From positions 1-64,000 of the forward strand of contig LDWW01000020.1 of the NCBI GenBank assembly GCA_001045525.1: a stretch of 64,000 bases of DNA, written 5' to 3'. Every line of letters starts with the position of its first letter. Within the stretch, counting starts at the first letter, position 1. Positions 51,860-63,021 of this stretch are shown piece after piece. The stretch comes from Chitinispirillum alkaliphilum (lineage in GTDB: Bacteria > Fibrobacterota > Chitinivibrionia > Chitinivibrionales > Chitinispirillaceae). Below the pieces are notes generated by a model, which saw only the letters and a list, made by a program, of their open reading frames with translations, did not search any database and was not told the origin of the DNA. A program made the translations under genes and the position numbers.

Positions 51860-53923
51860 CTGAAACTAACCAGATCATCACAGAAAAAACAGAACAAACC
51901 GGCTGCAATAAATATAATCTGGCTCTACATGATTCTAATTAGTATCGTTGTGGCCGCCTATACCGGGAATATGGATTCCCTCACTACCGCCTCATTCGAT
52001 TCTGCAAGAAGCGCCGTAACGCTGGCTATAGGACTGATTGGAGCTATGGCTCTCTGGCTTGGGATCATGAAAGTGGCGGAAACTGCCGGTATCATGAAAT
52101 CTATCGCCAAAGCTATCCGCCCACTTATGATACGACTGTTTCCTGATGTCCCCTCGGACCATCCCGCTATGTCAGCTATTATTATGAACATGGCCGCCAA
52201 TATGCTTGGACTGGGAAATGCTGCAACACCCATGGGCATCAAGGCAATGTCGGAACTGGACAAGCTGAATACAGAAAAAGATACTGCCTCAAACTCTATG
52301 TGCCTCTTTCTGGCAATTAATACTTCCAGTGTCACTATACTGCCCCTGGGAGTAATAGCGGTAAGAGCCTCTGCTGGAGCCAGAGGGCCTGCAGACATAT
52401 TACTTCCGGCAATACTGGCCACACTCTGCTCCACAATCGCCGCAATCTTTATTTCAAAACTTCTGGCTAAAAGATCACCAAACCCCAAACAGCTCAGCTG
52501 TTCTGAAATCAAAGAAACCGTTTCTGAGAAAGAACATTCAGTCCCAGAAAACAAAATACCGCTGGTAAAGCCTGGGTTTATTGGCAAAATCGCTGCATAC
52601 CTGCTCATTGCAGCATTTCTGGTCTCTATTGTCTACTCCAGCAACTCAGCAAGGATCACTCACTCACACGACCTGAAACTATTTTACTCAGCCCAAACAA
52701 ATGAGTCGATTCAAGTTTTCAGGGTGGTAACAGAGGAAAACAATAATATACTGAGTTGGAGAACTCAAACTGAAGACTCCTCCTCAACCATTAATATTTT
52801 CAGAAGAGTCAACCCTTTACTCCTGAGCGGTGATGATGATTTGAATCTCAACAATCAATGGCAGCAAATAAATTCAGAACCACTCTCCGCGTTTGCCGGT
52901 CCGTTCACATTTACAGACAGCTCCCTTGAAGCGGATGTAAAGTATCAGTACAAATTGGTCAGTTCAGACGAAAACACCATTGCATACGCCAAACCCGTAC
53001 CGATTTCAGGAGTACAGAGTGCATCAACCAGCAGTTTTATTCCCTATAACCCGGATCTACCCCTGAACATATTTATAGTCAACTCGATGGGTACCGATAC
53101 TGCCAACTCTCTAACCTGGCAAGCCAATTTGAACCAGGGTGACAACCATTTTCATCTGTATAGAAAACCCAAAGAAGCTCAGGCCAATATAAACGACACC
53201 GTCTGGAAACGGATAAGTACAACCACCATACCACAGGAGAGTGCCTCCGCCGAAACTCAGCTGATCAGTTTTGAAGACAGAAATTTTAACCACGGTACCA
53301 TCTATCAATACGCACTGATCATTTCTGATGAAAATGATCACCACGTGGCCGGGTATGCAGAGATTGAGTCGGCCCCGAAGCCTTTGGGATTTCTCGATTA
53401 TGTGAGCAGTGCAACCGGATGGCTAATCCCGATCATCATGGGCGGGCTTCTTCTTTTAGGCTATCTTAAAGGAGTGAAGGTCTATGAGGTCCTTACCGAC
53501 GGAGCCAAGGAAGGGTTTCAGGTAGCAGTAAGAATTATTCCATTCCTGGTAGCCATATTTGTAGCGATAGGTATGTTCAGAGCAAGCGGTGCACTCGAAC
53601 TTTTCACCCAACTCCTTAGCCCCCTTACAAGACTCATCGGTATGCCCGCAGAGGTGCTTCCAATGGCTTTATTGCGCCCGCTTTCCGGAACCGGTGCCTA
53701 CGGCTACATGGCAGAAATTGTGACTCAGGCACCCGACAGTTTCAGTGCCTTCATTTCATCTGTAATGCAGGGATCGACAGAAACCACCTTTTATGTGCTG
53801 GCTGTATATTTTGGAAGCATTGGAATAAGAAAAACCCGCCACGCTTTGCCTGCAGCACTGAGCGCAGATGCAATAGGTATTTTATCCGCACTGTTCTTTT
53901 CACATATCTTCTTCAACATGTGA
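51860..53923 (+). CDS. SpmA-SpmB fusion (nucleoside recognition domain) with inserted Fn3-like domains, apparent CTG start
   Basis: A 687-residue membrane protein. Residues 20-215 match SpmA (TGNMDSLTTASFDSARSAV, MNMAANMLGLGNAATPMGIK), and 510-687 match SpmB (ITPFL-type gate region, RPLSGTGAYGYMAEIV, GSTETTFYVLAVYFGSIGIR). Between them one more membrane segment (LLIAAFLVSIVYS) leads to about 235 polar residues with two Fn3-like repeats (NILSWRTQ with YQYKLVSSDE; NSLTWQAN with YQYALIISDE). The first ATG (51929) cuts the first membrane helix: upstream codons give AINIIWLY, as in SpmA. GGAGG (51849-51853) stands 6 bases before CTG at 51860, the only plausible start. Spm proteins aid core dehydration in spore formers; in others the role is unknown. 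Confidence 0.85.
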   Translation: MKLTRSSQKKQNKPAAINIIWLYMILISIVVAAYTGNMDSLTTASFDSARSAVTLAIGLIGAMALWLGIMKVAETAGIMKSIAKAIRPLMIRLFPDVPSDHPAMSAIIMNMAANMLGLGNAATPMGIKAMSELDKLNTEKDTASNSMCLFLAINTSSVTILPLGVIAVRASAGARGPADILLPAILATLCSTIAAIFISKLLAKRSPNPKQLSCSEIKETVSEKEHSVPENKIPLVKPGFIGKIAAYLLIAAFLVSIVYSSNSARITHSHDLKLFYSAQTNESIQVFRVVTEENNNILSWRTQTEDSSSTINIFRRVNPLLLSGDDDLNLNNQWQQINSEPLSAFAGPFTFTDSSLEADVKYQYKLVSSDENTIAYAKPVPISGVQSASTSSFIPYNPDLPLNIFIVNSMGTDTANSLTWQANLNQGDNHFHLYRKPKEAQANINDTVWKRISTTTIPQESASAETQLISFEDRNFNHGTIYQYALIISDENDHHVAGYAEIESAPKPLGFLDYVSSATGWLIPIIMGGLLLLGYLKGVKVYEVLTDGAKEGFQVAVRIIPFLVAIFVAIGMFRASGALELFTQLLSPLTRLIGMPAEVLPMALLRPLSGTGAYGYMAEIVTQAPDSFSAFISSVMQGSTETTFYVLAVYFGSIGIRKTRHALPAALSADAIGILSALFFSHIFFNM

Positions 53924-57882: not shown

Positions 57883-58065
57883 TCAAATTTCCAGATCACG
57901 TTCAAAAAAAAGATGAATACAGCCTAACCCATCCTCAACACAGGATTCCTTTAACAGCCATCCATTTCTGATCATTTCAGCAGAAACCCTCTCAACTTCA
58001 TCAACAACCTTTTTAGCGCTTTTTGAAAATCCAACTTTCACTACCCGCTCAGCAGTTTCCTTCAT
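57883..58065 (-). CDS. Small hypothetical protein, 60 aa
   Basis: A 60-residue cytoplasmic protein, no named family known to me. It has a basic first half (ERVVKVGFSKSAKKVVDEVE) and a last strand NGWLLKESCVEDGLGCIHLF, in which the W-x-L...hydrophobic end resembles the small DUF4177-type fold. I chose the ATG at 58065 because AGGGAG lies 5 bases upstream; the stop of the upstream lipoprotein gene overlaps the start (TAATG). The STAS gene follows after 88 bases. Confidence 0.65.
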   Translation of the reverse strand: MKETAERVVKVGFSKSAKKVVDEVERVSAEMIRNGWLLKESCVEDGLGCIHLFFERDLEI

Positions 58066-58703
58066 TACCACTCCCTGTAACCTACACCAGGCTGTACCTG
58101 AGGCAGTGAATCACAAAGTGCGGCAATTCCATTCCCTATAATAGTACAGTCGGTTTCTTTAAAATCCAAGCTCAAAACATTTACCGCAGCCCTCCACACA
58201 ACCTCCGGCCCATCGGAGCGCCACAACTCCCCTTCAATCCTCAGCCGCCTGCTCTGGGAACCATCAAGAGCCCTGACACTGGCAGCATTTGTAACCCTTG
58301 TAACAAAGAAAAACTGTCCATGAAAATTGTCCCAAACATTTTGGGCCGATTGAACATCCAGTAATTCTGAGTTGAATAAATTATGATAAAAAAGATTGAG
58401 TTCTTCTATACCGTGTCTCTCTTTGAAAGAACGCTCAAACTCATATACCGATACCAGTTGCAGATCAGACCTGTTTCTCCTTAGTTTCCTCAAAAGTTTG
58501 CCGGATTCAAGATTACCTGCAGATATGGGTCTGCCCTGCATCAATACCGGCCCAACCACTATATCGGCTCCACTGAGATCGCGTCCCGAAAACTGAGGAT
58601 CTGTATAAAGATCATGGAACGCAATTCCCGTTTTACCTGAGCAGAATGACAGAAAAAGCATCAGTATCACCAAACCCAAACGATTACTTTTCCGTTTTGT
58701 CAC
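58065..58703 (-). CDS. Putative lipoprotein, 212 aa
   Basis: A predicted lipoprotein: signal peptide with lipobox LSFCS near residue 21. The mature part begins DLYTDPQFSGRDLSGADIVV, then alternates helices and strands to HGQFFFVTRVTNAASVRALD and LRIEGELWRSDGPEVVWRAA. This layout recalls curli-assembly CsgG- or GNA1162-like periplasmic domains, which share a CGxxL-type lipid anchor and the same strand order, but the match is weak. It starts with GTG directly after the AraC-regulator stop and ends overlapping the 60-residue gene, so it is part of the regulator's transcript. Confidence 0.68.
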   Translation of the reverse strand: MTKRKSNRLGLVILMLFLSFCSGKTGIAFHDLYTDPQFSGRDLSGADIVVGPVLMQGRPISAGNLESGKLLRKLRRNRSDLQLVSVYEFERSFKERHGIEELNLFYHNLFNSELLDVQSAQNVWDNFHGQFFFVTRVTNAASVRALDGSQSRRLRIEGELWRSDGPEVVWRAAVNVLSLDFKETDCTIIGNGIAALCDSLPQVQPGVGYREW

Positions 58704-59840
58704 CTAAGAGCGTTCCTCTCCGTCACTTGGCTCCCCCGTTAACTGACCACTTCTCTGATTGCGATATTTTGTGGGGGTAACATCGAGCCTCTGTTTGAAC
58801 TCTCTGTTGAAATGATTTGGTGTTGCATAGCCTATTGTGTAGGCTATCTCTGCAATATTAAAATCTGTTTCACTTAGAAGTCTTTTTGCCTCTTCTATTC
58901 TAAGATCATGAATGAGAGAGCGAAAACCCTCCTGGTGATTGTTCCTTATCAGTCTCGATAGTCTCGACTCCGAAAATCCCAGCTCATTTGCAGCCTTTTT
59001 AAGGTTTAACTCGGAATTGGAGTAATTCTTCTGAAAATAGTCCAGTACCCGCTGCCATTCTGTCGGTCCGGTCTCTATTGGCTTTGGCTGAAGAATTTTG
59101 GTATCTGACTCTATTTCACCACTTTTGGGAGTACCACTCTGTGGTTTCTCTTTTTTCCTCAAAAGTCTGAGAATAACTATCGAAGCCAACAGGGCAATCA
59201 AAAACAGAGGCCACAACAGGCTGATATTTTTCTTACTGTTTGAAACAAAGTAGAGATTTTCCAAAATTAATGTATCAGCCTGACCGATCCTTGAAGTATC
59301 AGAAAAAACCCAATCGATTCGCGTCAAAGAATCAAGGTGAAGATCATGATCCTCAGAAACAGCTCCATATTGCAATTTCCACCAATTAGCCACCCTGAAC
59401 TGGCCTAAAGGCACCGAAAAACGCCGGGTCTTCTCTGCTATATACAGAGAAGTTTCAAGAACTCTGTAACTGGATGGATCCTCTGAGCTGGTGTACACCG
59501 GATCATATGTAGCAAGCTGCAGATGCAAATGCCCGCTTCTGTTGCTTCGCATATGAATGACAAGAGAGTCGTTTTCAGAATACCTTCGGGCTGATTCCGG
59601 TTTCACATGCAAGTGATGCATCAACCCAACGTAGGGATATCTGTTATGACCTTCAAGTCGAAATACCCACACTACCCTGTTTGAATCCACACTAAGCTCT
59701 ACCGTACCGGAACCACCATAGGCCCCTGAATCACCAAAAGAACTCCAGAGAGCATCATCCCCGGGGAAATGCCCCAAAACATCTGAAAAACAAATCGTTA
59801 ATATAAAGGCTATAAACAATTGGATAATCAATTTCAACAC
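58704..59840 (-). CDS. Membrane-bound AraC-family regulator with extracytoplasmic carbohydrate-binding-like domain
   Basis: A one-component sensor of 378 residues. An N-terminal export signal or anchor (1-23) is followed by a beta jelly-roll of about 185 residues (WSSFGDSGAYGGSGTVELSV, WVFRLEGHNRYPYVGL, RFSVPLGQFRVANWWKL, RIDWVFSDTS) that resembles CBM11/CIA30-type galactose-binding-like domains. A membrane segment (LLWPLFLIALLASIVILRLL) lies near 208-226, and an AraC helix-turn-helix pair near 270-365 (LNLKKAANELGFSESRLSRL; FNIAEIAYTIGYATPNHFNR). It is transcribed away from a GH9 cellulase gene, so it may sense cell-surface sugars and drive that gene. Start GTG at 59840. Confidence 0.85.
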   Translation of the reverse strand: MLKLIIQLFIAFILTICFSDVLGHFPGDDALWSSFGDSGAYGGSGTVELSVDSNRVVWVFRLEGHNRYPYVGLMHHLHVKPESARRYSENDSLVIHMRSNRSGHLHLQLATYDPVYTSSEDPSSYRVLETSLYIAEKTRRFSVPLGQFRVANWWKLQYGAVSEDHDLHLDSLTRIDWVFSDTSRIGQADTLILENLYFVSNSKKNISLLWPLFLIALLASIVILRLLRKKEKPQSGTPKSGEIESDTKILQPKPIETGPTEWQRVLDYFQKNYSNSELNLKKAANELGFSESRLSRLIRNNHQEGFRSLIHDLRIEEAKRLLSETDFNIAEIAYTIGYATPNHFNREFKQRLDVTPTKYRNQRSGQLTGEPSDGEERS

Positions 59841-59965
59841 GGTCCTTTCACAACTGTTTTGTACAGAGCAACCATATCATCTGTTAAATCTGACCTGAAA
59901 TCAACAGTTTATATTAAATTTACCATTTTGATAATGCCTGTGTAACATATTATTTCTTATTTATG

Positions 59966-60016
59966 AATAACAGGTGATTTTCATGGTCTGAATGTAAATA
60001 TAATTTACCTGTAATT
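59966..60016. promoter_or_regulatory. Inverted-repeat operator candidate between AraC regulator and GH9 gene
   Basis: Half-site AATAACAGGTGATT (59966-59979) and the reverse complement of AATTACAGGTAAAT (60003-60016) share AAT-ACAGGT-A-T. Spacing between centres is 37 bases, about 3.5 helical turns. AraC-type regulators often bind such paired sites. The region 59841-60134 holds no gene; the GH9 ribosome site AAGGAG lies 7 bases before its ATG. Confidence 0.5.
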
Positions 60017-60134
60017 TGTGTTTCACTCCTAATTGAAGATTCAGACAAGGATTGAACAGATTACGACAACATATTAAAAATTGAAATTATTATATTAAAC
60101 GCATAACCAAAACAACTTATTCAAGGAGCCTTTT

Positions 60135-62366
60135 ATGCACAGACTCAAAGTATTACTTGCAGCACCTCTGCTGCTGGTTTCAATGTTATCTGCAGAAATT
60201 CATATTCGGCACAACCATGCCGGATACCAACCAGTACGCCCAAAGTCGCTTGTTTTGATCTCAAATAATGATCTGCAAAACAAGGATTGGAAAATAACAA
60301 GAGATGGCGAAGTTGTCATGAGCGGCAAAGTTGATGAAAGTGTCACAGGAGCTGGCCCTCATACAAGTCACGATTTCAACCATGTAGTTGATTTCACTGA
60401 CCTTGAGGAAATCGGTGAGTACACTTTTAAAATCAATGGTGCCCAAGCAACAATAAAAATTGATGATAACCCCTATACTGTTTTTATTACCGATGCACTG
60501 CGCCACCTCAGAAATGCAAGAAGCGGAAGTGAACACGCAATACTGTACGGTTTATCACACCCCGGAGATTCTGCTGCCATAGTTCACGTCATCGATGGAG
60601 AACCAAGTGAAGGCAGATGGAAAAAAGCATCACCAAAACAAACAGTCGATGCTCTCGGTGGATGGTACGATGCCGGTGATTATATCAAGTTCACTCTAAC
60701 CATTGCCAACACCACCTATCACCTTCTGGAAGCATGGGAAGCTAACCCCAAAGCTTTTACCAAGGTAATCTCTCCAAGTGATCTGCCAGATGTACTCGAT
60801 GAAGCTCTTCATGGACTTAACTACCTGATGAAAACACATCCGGATCCAGACATTTTCATTATACAGGTGGGTGATGGCGACGACCATCGTCAGGGATACT
60901 ACAGGCTTCCAACACACGATGCTCTCGACGGCCAAAGGCCTGCGCTGACCGCTATCAGCCCTGTTCAAATGGGTGTTGCCGCAGCAAGCCTTGCCAAGGG
61001 TTCACGGGTGTTCCGCGATCTGGGTGAAACTGAAAAGGCTGATGAATTCCTGGAAATGGCGATTAAGATTTTCAACAGAGCACGTCAGCCAGATGCCCTG
61101 GATGAGCCTGCATTTGAAAGGGATGCAACAAATGACTTCTACAGGGATGATGACCTGATAGATAATATGGCACTTGGCGCAATGGAATTGTACCACGCAA
61201 CACAGGAGCAGGAATATCTGGACTACGCCAGAGTACTGGAAGCCGGTGCTGGAGAATGGATGGGCTGGACCAAATACAATTTTAATGCAAATTTCGGTCT
61301 TGCAGAATTTGATGATTTTTTCAGAGACGCGGTAATTGAAGATATTGATCACTTTGTTGGCAACATGGACCCTGTTTGGGGTATACCTCTTGCCTATGTA
61401 TGGGCATCAATGCATAACTGGAATGCAGTTGGAGCTGCTGCCGGGATTACATACCGTGATATCGAACAAAACCCTGCATATCTGGATCTTCACACCAAAA
61501 TGGTTGACCTGCTTTTCGGAAGAAGCAACTGGGGCGTGACATTCCTTGCAAACACCCGCCTCGATAATTCTGTAAGAAACATTTATAGCCAAACCTATGT
61601 TCTCACAGGCGAATTCCCTTATGGGGCTGTTGCACTTGGCCCAGGAGACCGCGAAACACATACTGCTATGGAACAGTATTTCGGAAAACCTCCAGCAAGT
61701 CATCTGGATGACTTCCAAACTGCAGCAGCATCATTCTATGACTGGAACAAAAATTTCATGACCATGGAAACATGTGTATACAGCCAGACCTATGCTATCT
61801 GGATGCTTGCTGTCGCAAGCAACCCTGAGGTGCAGGCTGAGCCGGACTCTTCACTGCCCCCATACGAAGGGGTAAGGATAAAGGAAGCCTCTATAACTCC
61901 TTTTGATGTGAATAATGTGAACTGGTATGTTTACGCCGACAATTCTGCAGGCGGAAACAGCAGAGCGAACATAAGAAATGCTGCAAGACGTGAAGCACTT
62001 CTCAGAGTAAGACCAGGAATACAGTGGCCATACACCGGTTTTGGCTTTACCTTTCCTGCAAACAAGCGTGACCTTTCTGCTTATGACGGTATGATTATCA
62101 GAGGATTTTTCGAGCCAGAGAGAACCTTTAGGATTGATCTTGGGATGGCTTCCATTACAGATCATAGCTTCCATAATAAGGTAAAGCTTGGACATGGTGA
62201 AGAAACTGAGCTTGTTCTTCTCTTCGATGATATGCACAGATCATGGGGCGGATCGATCCCACTTGATTTAACAGATATTTCTATGTTGCATATAAATTTC
62301 ACCTCACCAGGCAGAAATGCAACAGTACGTGTGGATGAGATAAAGCTCTTTAACATCGAGGAATAA
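60135..62366 (+). CDS. GH9 cellulase (endoglucanase) with CelD-type N-domain and C-terminal CBM-like domain
   Basis: A secreted glycoside hydrolase family 9 enzyme of 743 residues that cuts beta-1,4-glucan chains. A signal peptide covers 1-20. The N-terminal Ig-like CelD domain (21-110) starts HIRHNHAGYQPVRPKSLVLI. The catalytic (alpha/alpha)6 barrel (120-565) has the base aspartates in GGWYDAGDYIKF near residue 178 and the acid glutamate in TMETCVYSQTYAIW near 543. The C-terminal domain (580-743) is a jelly-roll of CIA30/CBM11-type (WYVYADNSAGGNSRANIRNA, WPYTGFGFTFPANKRDLSAY). No dockerin and no T9SS-like domain. Regulated possibly by the divergent AraC protein. Confidence 0.93.
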   Translation: MHRLKVLLAAPLLLVSMLSAEIHIRHNHAGYQPVRPKSLVLISNNDLQNKDWKITRDGEVVMSGKVDESVTGAGPHTSHDFNHVVDFTDLEEIGEYTFKINGAQATIKIDDNPYTVFITDALRHLRNARSGSEHAILYGLSHPGDSAAIVHVIDGEPSEGRWKKASPKQTVDALGGWYDAGDYIKFTLTIANTTYHLLEAWEANPKAFTKVISPSDLPDVLDEALHGLNYLMKTHPDPDIFIIQVGDGDDHRQGYYRLPTHDALDGQRPALTAISPVQMGVAAASLAKGSRVFRDLGETEKADEFLEMAIKIFNRARQPDALDEPAFERDATNDFYRDDDLIDNMALGAMELYHATQEQEYLDYARVLEAGAGEWMGWTKYNFNANFGLAEFDDFFRDAVIEDIDHFVGNMDPVWGIPLAYVWASMHNWNAVGAAAGITYRDIEQNPAYLDLHTKMVDLLFGRSNWGVTFLANTRLDNSVRNIYSQTYVLTGEFPYGAVALGPGDRETHTAMEQYFGKPPASHLDDFQTAAASFYDWNKNFMTMETCVYSQTYAIWMLAVASNPEVQAEPDSSLPPYEGVRIKEASITPFDVNNVNWYVYADNSAGGNSRANIRNAARREALLRVRPGIQWPYTGFGFTFPANKRDLSAYDGMIIRGFFEPERTFRIDLGMASITDHSFHNKVKLGHGEETELVLLFDDMHRSWGGSIPLDLTDISMLHINFTSPGRNATVRVDEIKLFNIEE

Positions 62367-62451: not shown

Positions 62452-63021
62452 TTAATAGTTTTCTGGAGTTTCAACGATCTGTACAGTTGAAGCCTGCGGT
62501 CCCTTTTCTCCCATTGTTTCCACAAAACGCACTCCCAAACCCTCTTTGAGTGAATCGAAGTCTCTGTTTAGTATGCTGTTTTTATGGAAAAACACCTCTC
62601 TGCCATCGATAGTTATAATAAAGCCAGTCCCATCAGCTCTGAAAATTCTTGCAATCACACCCTGCACCTCATTGTGCACATGCTTTTTGACATCTCCCCG
62701 CTGTTTTTCCATGAGCGCTTTTATTTTTCTCTCTGCGGTGTCAAAGGCCCAGCGCACTTCAGCCCCAAGATCGAGGTGCAGATCCCCTTTACCGGGATCC
62801 CGACTTACTACTATTTCATGCCCCGGGGGCATCTTTATATCCAATCTAACCTTGTAAGGTTGCCCGGAGCGCTGATGTTTCTGAAATTTTTCCACCATCA
62901 CCCTGCAACTGGTTATATGATCACACAGTATATCGAGCTTGGCAGCTCTTCTTCGGATAAGATCATCGATCTCATCAGTTTTGGTCCCATCTCTATAGGT
63001 AACTTCCAGAGGTATTTGCAT
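62452..63021 (-). CDS. Ribosome hibernation factor (HPF/RaiA) fused to a cold-shock domain
   Basis: A 189-residue two-domain protein. Residues 1-105 are the HPF/RaiA fold that blocks the decoding centre of idle ribosomes (MQIPLEVTYRDGTKTDEIDD, CRVMVEKFQKHQRSGQPYKV, then LGAEVRWAFDTAERKIKALM). Residues 120-189 are a cold-shock-type OB domain (GVIARIFRADGTGFIITIDG, then EVFFHKNSIL and LGVRFVETMGEKGPQASTVQ). This fusion is a known variant in several phyla, and differs from the long HPF with its own dimerisation domain. Single gene on the reverse strand; 98 bases separate it from the next. Confidence 0.9.
   Translation of the reverse strand: MQIPLEVTYRDGTKTDEIDDLIRRRAAKLDILCDHITSCRVMVEKFQKHQRSGQPYKVRLDIKMPPGHEIVVSRDPGKGDLHLDLGAEVRWAFDTAERKIKALMEKQRGDVKKHVHNEVQGVIARIFRADGTGFIITIDGREVFFHKNSILNRDFDSLKEGLGVRFVETMGEKGPQASTVQIVETPENY

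Follow-up and report, generated by a model that had tools for sequence, protein, structure and literature searches.

The locus

The window, a 64,000-nucleotide stretch of Chitinispirillum alkaliphilum DNA (contig LDWW01000020.1), contains a gene for a membrane-tethered AraC regulator and a gene for a GH9 enzyme, divergently arranged around a short intergenic region. The features, with the evidence on which each assignment is based, are the following.

58704-59840, minus strand: AraC regulator tethered to the membrane, 378 aa, with GTG as start codon (open reading frame, HTH_18, AlphaFold model)
59772-59840, minus strand: hydrophobic N-terminus, either a signal peptide or the first membrane helix, residues 1-23 (hydropathy 2.0-2.4; model helix 2-17)
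59232-59765, minus strand: CBM11/CIA30-like beta-sandwich sensor, predicted periplasmic, residues about 26-203 (Foldseek, structure comparison, hhalign)
59151-59231, minus strand: membrane helix, residues 204-230, followed by RLLRKKEK, positive-inside (hydropathy up to 2.7; model helix 203-230)
59067-59150, minus strand: flexible cytoplasmic linker, residues 231-258 (pLDDT below 50 in the AlphaFold model)
58743-59066, minus strand: AraC/XylS double helix-turn-helix DNA-binding domain, residues 259-366 (Pfam and structure matches)
59841-60134, no strand: promoter region shared by the divergent regulator and GH9 genes, 294 bp, the likely regulated stretch (position between the open reading frames)
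60135-62366, plus strand: GH9 enzyme, 743 aa, with CelD_N, GH9 catalytic and CIA30/CBM11-like C-terminal domains (Pfam)
61914-62360, plus strand: GH9 C-terminal domain, homologous to the regulator sensor (hhalign; model matches)

The initial annotation had drawn the regulator as a single feature at 58704-60134. Its coding part, 58704-59840 on the minus strand, stands, whereas 59841-60134 is the divergent promoter region and not protein. A search of this region for an operator, by direct and inverted repeats, by alignment with two relatives and by scanning for promoters, brought up no signal beyond what chance would give. The enzyme gene has clear Pfam matches to GH9 (2.1e-54) and CelD_N (2.6e-10), and a CIA30 match at residues 596-715 that falls below the gathering threshold (6.4e-4). 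A putative lipoprotein gene (58065-58703) directly follows the regulator stop codon. This gene was considered as a partner of the regulator and rejected, because it is a core gene located elsewhere in relatives: homologues occur in 25 of 31, nearly always in single copy and at other loci. Two further genes of the window have unusual domain arrangements. At 62452-63021 a domain of the S30AE ribosome-hibernation type is joined to a cold-shock domain in one protein, and 51929-53923 encodes a 664-aa membrane protein in which two transporter-like membrane halves are split by a large soluble insert.

Architecture of the regulator

Hydropathy gives two hydrophobic stretches in the regulator, residues 1-26 and 204-230. 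The AlphaFold model, built from a 4-sequence alignment (alignments of 4 and 5 sequences served for the modelling), places a beta-sandwich at about 21-199, mostly with pLDDT 77-88, and the AraC helices at 261-367. A C-terminal HTH_18 match (residues 284-362, E 3.4e-22, 79 bits against a curated cut-off of 33.6) makes the protein a member of the AraC/XylS family. Structure comparison over residues 257-374 gave Z scores of 12-16.6 to AraC-domain structures, the best being the C-terminal domain of AraT (6swi, Z 16.6) and yesN (3lsg, Z 16.5). Hydropathy, HTH_18 and the model thus bear out the arrangement that had been read from the sequence, an outward jelly roll, a membrane helix and an AraC pair.

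By this predicted topology, with sensor, membrane helix and helix-turn-helix in one chain, the regulator is a membrane-bound one-component transcription factor. Pfam names only the helix-turn-helix in it and finds no kinase or receiver (HisKA, HATPase and receiver domains are all absent), and it is therefore not a hybrid two-component system. Nor is it an RsgI protein, because its inner part is AraC and the intracellular anti-sigma-I domain is absent. In a cell with two membranes the predicted topology would have the sensor facing the periplasm, and sensing at the cell surface, as first suggested, is not upheld. Three of the seven HTH_18 genes in the window's own genome are of the tethered sensor-AraC type; the two additional paralogues lie at L032:9325-10431 (contig C6 of G000) and L045:9393-10466 (contig C3), and a GH16 gene adjoins the one on contig C6.

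Fold and kinship of the sensor domain

A fold of the CIA30/CBM11 type had been named beforehand as a point on which the initial reading should stand or fall, and a CBM11/CIA30 jelly roll is what structure prediction gave. Foldseek matched the sandwich to CBM11 (2lro, 1v0a, 6r31; E 9.8e-8 to 2.6e-7), to CIA30/NDUFAF1 (E 2.9e-6) and also to CBM30. In a DALI-like comparison (VIA) the CBM11 structures gave Z 15.2-15.5 at an rmsd of 3.3-3.4 over 161-168 residues, among them CBM11 with a bound beta-1,3-1,4 tetrasaccharide (6r31: Z 15.5, 161 residues, 3.3 A); NDUFAF1 gave Z 15.9 and CBM30 Z 12.4. The modelled sensor thus has the CBM11 fold over its whole length. Sequence models are silent by comparison. 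CBM_11 (PF03425) matched neither the window protein nor any of 42 sensor domains; CIA30 (PF08547) missed the window sensor and matched 2 of the 42 relatives (best E 0.0042). Pfam and NCBIfam give the domain no name, none of the carbohydrate-binding models in Pfam scores the sensor above the cut-off, and a search of the sensor profile against PDB sequences returned nothing believable.

The resemblance of the jelly roll to the C-terminal domain of the facing enzyme, also part of the initial annotation, was sustained by profile comparison. A profile of the 42 sensor domains aligned with one of 7 GH9 C-terminal-type domains in hhalign at 97.7% and E 1.5e-12 over 146 columns; direct BLASTP of sensor and GH9 C-terminus gave E 1.4, no signal. 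The kinship of sensor and GH9 module is therefore real, though pairwise BLASTP is blind to it. The model of the GH9 C-terminal domain (pLDDT 63) itself matches CIA30 and CBM11 at E 3e-5 to 8e-5, and the sensor profile matches the CBM11 modules of neighbouring GH9 enzymes weakly (hhalign, 80%, E 1.4e-5).

The fold by itself is no proof of sugar binding, because CIA30/NDUFAF1 ties with CBM11 (Z 15.9 against 15.5), and CIA30/NDUFAF1 is an assembly factor without a known glycan ligand. The sensor might instead have kept the assembly-factor side of the superfamily and bind protein or envelope, its inputs being, for example, exported GH9 C-terminal domains, a sensor-only partner or the state of the envelope. 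The equal fit of the CIA30/NDUFAF1 structures speaks for this possibility, as does the presence of homologous domains on both partners, which could pair with one another. It is countered by Trp154, the sole invariant position of the sensor family (42 of 42). Through two alignments, from the sensor to the neighbouring CBM11 modules and from these to the solved CtCBM11, this residue falls opposite CtCBM11 Tyr129, which we take to be a ligand-stacking tyrosine. Together with the genomic evidence below, this leads us to regard a non-sugar sensor as improbable.

Genomic neighbourhood

The expectation that homologues of the regulator would lie beside glycoside hydrolase genes was borne out by strong enrichment. 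Across 15 genomes, a GH9, GH5 or GH16 domain is found no farther than 1 kb from 13 of the 40 sensor genes, against 0.51 expected under random placement (binomial P about 2e-15, a value that overstates independence because the sensor genes are partly orthologous). Within 3 kb the count is 15 of 40 against 0.97 expected. AraC controls without the sensor are beside such domains in none of eight cases. Clustering at 35% identity yields 14 sensor groups, half of which (7) have a glycoside hydrolase neighbour when GH94 and GH2 are counted. Examples of such neighbours are GH9 at L016, L018, L023, L024 and L028; GH5 at L015, L017 and L038; GH16 at L020, L026, L027, L032 and orthologues; GH94 at L019; and GH2 at L022. 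The association extends to a second phylum, with six of nine Bacteroidota sensors near GH9 (L178, and L197 two genes away), GH10 (L058) or GH43 (L180, L195, L196) and none of these neighbours at L177, L179 and L198. Enrichment beside several unrelated families (GH9, GH5, GH16, GH10, GH43), in the majority of which the domain itself was not observed, argues against a sensor that binds protein or envelope.

The facing pair itself recurs in part in related genomes. One of the two nearest regulator orthologues (about 45%) is that of G006. Facing it is a gene for a secreted 346-aa protein that is not an enzyme but carries the C-terminal domain of the window GH9 enzyme (35%, E 1.3e-35); the link between regulator and C-terminal domain thus persists where the catalytic part has been lost or altered. 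L014, also one of the two nearest orthologues, has no such neighbour and no glycoside hydrolase beside it. In G001, of the same genus, the GH9 orthologue is kept without any such regulator, and the pairing of regulator and GH9 is therefore not obligatory.

The sensor could respond to glycans while the GH9 gene is not its main target; the regulator would then govern remote genes or its own gene alone, and would have come to its present position by inserting next to core genes. The absence of a glycoside hydrolase neighbour from about half of the homologues (lying by metG, ychF, uvrC and others) is consistent with this view, as are the GH9 gene of G001 and the downstream lipoprotein gene, whose location elsewhere in relatives suggests that the regulator is a local insertion. 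The divergent pairing over one short promoter region and the gene with an enzyme-type domain facing the G006 orthologue point the other way, and we consider this account quite unlikely. Control of the adjacent hydrolase gene remains the preferred reading.

Spread and outputs of the sensor family

The sensor domain is present in 139 of 168 Fibrobacterota genomes. The family was reached outside the phylum with a 4-sequence query, most of whose 80 loci match the AraC part only. Of the 55 outside genomes sampled through these loci, five, nearly all Bacteroidota and one with five copies, have the sensor, a fraction that gives no prevalence because the genomes were picked by AraC matches. L053 and L054 were not counted as independent of L014 and L015.

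The domain occurs alone and is fused to AraC, to diguanylate cyclase (GGDEF) and to histidine kinase outputs. GGDEF fusions were seen at L049, L050, L156, L165 and L184. Those at L049:8928-10280, L050:8939-10285 and L184:3894-5183 represent a fusion that numbers about one per Fibrobacter genome, and a CE2-type carbohydrate esterase gene adjoins that of L049. In another family of Fibrobacterota the output is a hybrid histidine kinase (L157:3284-5308), in which the sensor is joined to HisKA, HATPase and receiver domains. Such swapping of outputs onto GGDEF and HisKA/HATPase is the behaviour expected of a sensory module. Enzymes bear the domain as well, either internally or at the C-terminus: GH8 (L151, L153), GH5 (L159) and GH9.

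A common arrangement in Fibrobacter is a tandem in which one gene encodes a membrane protein consisting of the sensor alone (about 250 aa) and the other a sensor joined to half an AraC domain (about 311 aa); sister genera of Fibrobacter keep the full AraC (L164, L170, L171). Tandems were recorded at L048:9231-10933, L143:687-2328, L173:4303-5812 and L181:4004-5706. From the second sensor the first helix-turn-helix is gone (about 311 aa) or, in L173, the entire AraC domain (267 aa), and where neighbours were scanned an AI-2E-type transporter gene then follows. The tandem is possibly a heteromeric or a decaying regulator. Its sensor-only member, encoded in tandem with the sensor in Fibrobacteraceae, suggests heteromeric contacts, and to that extent favours a sensor that binds protein.

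A proposed mode of action

The evidence is best accommodated by a one-component sensor of beta-glucan fragments, tethered to the inner membrane with its sensory domain in the periplasm, that controls adjacent glycoside hydrolases, an interpretation that we hold to be likely; at this locus the regulator probably senses plant glucans and switches on the GH9 enzyme. Enzymes at the surface would release cello- or mixed-linkage oligosaccharides, which would be taken up into the periplasm and bound there by the CBM11/CIA30-type beta-sandwich. Since whatever is sensed has to reach the periplasm beforehand, fragments are a likelier signal than the polymer. Sensor and enzyme module share ancestry, so regulator and enzyme may be specific for one and the same substrate. 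Binding would alter the association of sensor domains, presumably their dimerisation, and the single membrane helix would relay the change to the cytoplasmic AraC pair, which would bind the divergent promoter and switch the GH9 gene, and perhaps its own gene, most likely on. Control of DNA from the membrane is workable, as ToxR/CadC-type membrane one-component activators show. SusR likewise shows that regulation from the membrane can work (PMC3878776).

A repressor, or a regulator freed by regulated proteolysis in the manner of RsgI, might serve in place of a membrane-bound activator. Most members of the AraC family in which the double helix-turn-helix is intact are activators, and in the model the sandwich leads to the membrane helix with no separate autoproteolytic periplasmic domain. 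The long disordered cytoplasmic linker of the model and the precedent of CBM-bearing RsgI sensors, which signal by proteolysis (PMC12203970), favour this alternative, which on balance we judge unlikely. Activation by a regulator that stays in the membrane is thus preferred.

Relation to known systems

The initial annotation was not aware of a described class of membrane-bound one-component AraC sensors with such a domain, but membrane-bound one-component AraC regulators beside cellulase genes are, as a general class, already known. In Saccharophagus degradans 2-40, 16 of 31 AraC proteins were reported in 2008 to be membrane-bound (Table 2 of PMC2386152). Sde_0324, Sde_3613 and others combine HTH_AraC with membrane regions by prediction, two of the proteins having 2 such regions, and lie beside cellulase or xylanase genes, and the authors likewise propose detection of extracellular polysaccharide (PMC2386152). 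No sensor fold is described there, however, and the phylum differs from that of the window regulator. In two Bacteroidota GH43 loci the tethered sensor is adjoined by another AraC protein, whose membrane part has several helices (L195:6652-7746, L196:6490-7584), resembling the AraC proteins with 6-7 TM listed for Saccharophagus.

The RsgI anti-sigma-I factors of Clostridium thermocellum join a CBM (CBM3, CBM42 and others), one membrane helix and an intracellular regulatory part, and control plant-fibre enzymes, as is proposed for the regulator (PMC12203970). They differ in their anti-sigma output with proteolytic release and no DNA-binding domain, in their Gram-positive host and in their CBM families. 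SusR and the hybrid two-component systems of Bacteroides control glycan-degradation genes from the inner membrane through a periplasmic oligosaccharide sensor (PMC3878776, PMC10766802). The chain of the hybrid systems closes with an AraC-type domain, but these systems need the kinase and receiver that the window regulator lacks; SusR is set apart by its published description, with a different DNA-binding domain, and the sensors of both are of other families. CBM11 of C. thermocellum Lic26A-Cel5E (1v0a, 6r31) shares the sensor's beta-sandwich fold over the whole domain and binds beta-1,4 and mixed beta-1,3-1,4 glucans (PMC5849603). It is about 11% identical to the sensor and belongs to a secreted enzyme, not a regulator.

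A description of the sensor domain or of its fusion to AraC was not found in the literature searched, from which subscription journals were excluded. A membrane-bound AraC protein beside cellulases belongs to a known class, so the regulator is not a new one. What is new, as far as that literature shows, is the CBM11/CIA30-like sensor family, its phylum-wide spread, its modular outputs and its common ancestry with the modules of adjacent enzymes. The initial observation is thus confirmed with corrections, and its interpretation is partly supported.

Implications

At this locus a binding module of the enzyme type appears to serve as the input domain of a one-protein regulator in a two-membrane bacterium, and the family may offer glucan-responsive switches for engineering. 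A wider proposal, which we put forward tentatively and at somewhat less than even probability, is that a CBM-derived periplasmic domain is a general plant-glycan sensor of Fibrobacterota, plugged into AraC, diguanylate cyclases and a hybrid kinase, and that its cyclase version is the missing c-di-GMP sensor. In Fibrobacter succinogenes c-di-GMP is about 2.5 times higher on cellulose than on glucose, and growth on cellulose induces GGDEF proteins of the inner membrane for which no stimulus is known (PMC6851124). The GGDEF-sensor version is a candidate for sensing the stimulus of these proteins. If the proposal is true, the AraC version would govern transcription of neighbouring hydrolases and the cyclase version would account for the rise of c-di-GMP on cellulose. 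Fibrobacter and its relatives are major degraders of cellulose, and a sensor akin to enzyme binding modules, coupled throughout the phylum to AraC, GGDEF or kinase, provides a concrete candidate for the means by which they sense it.
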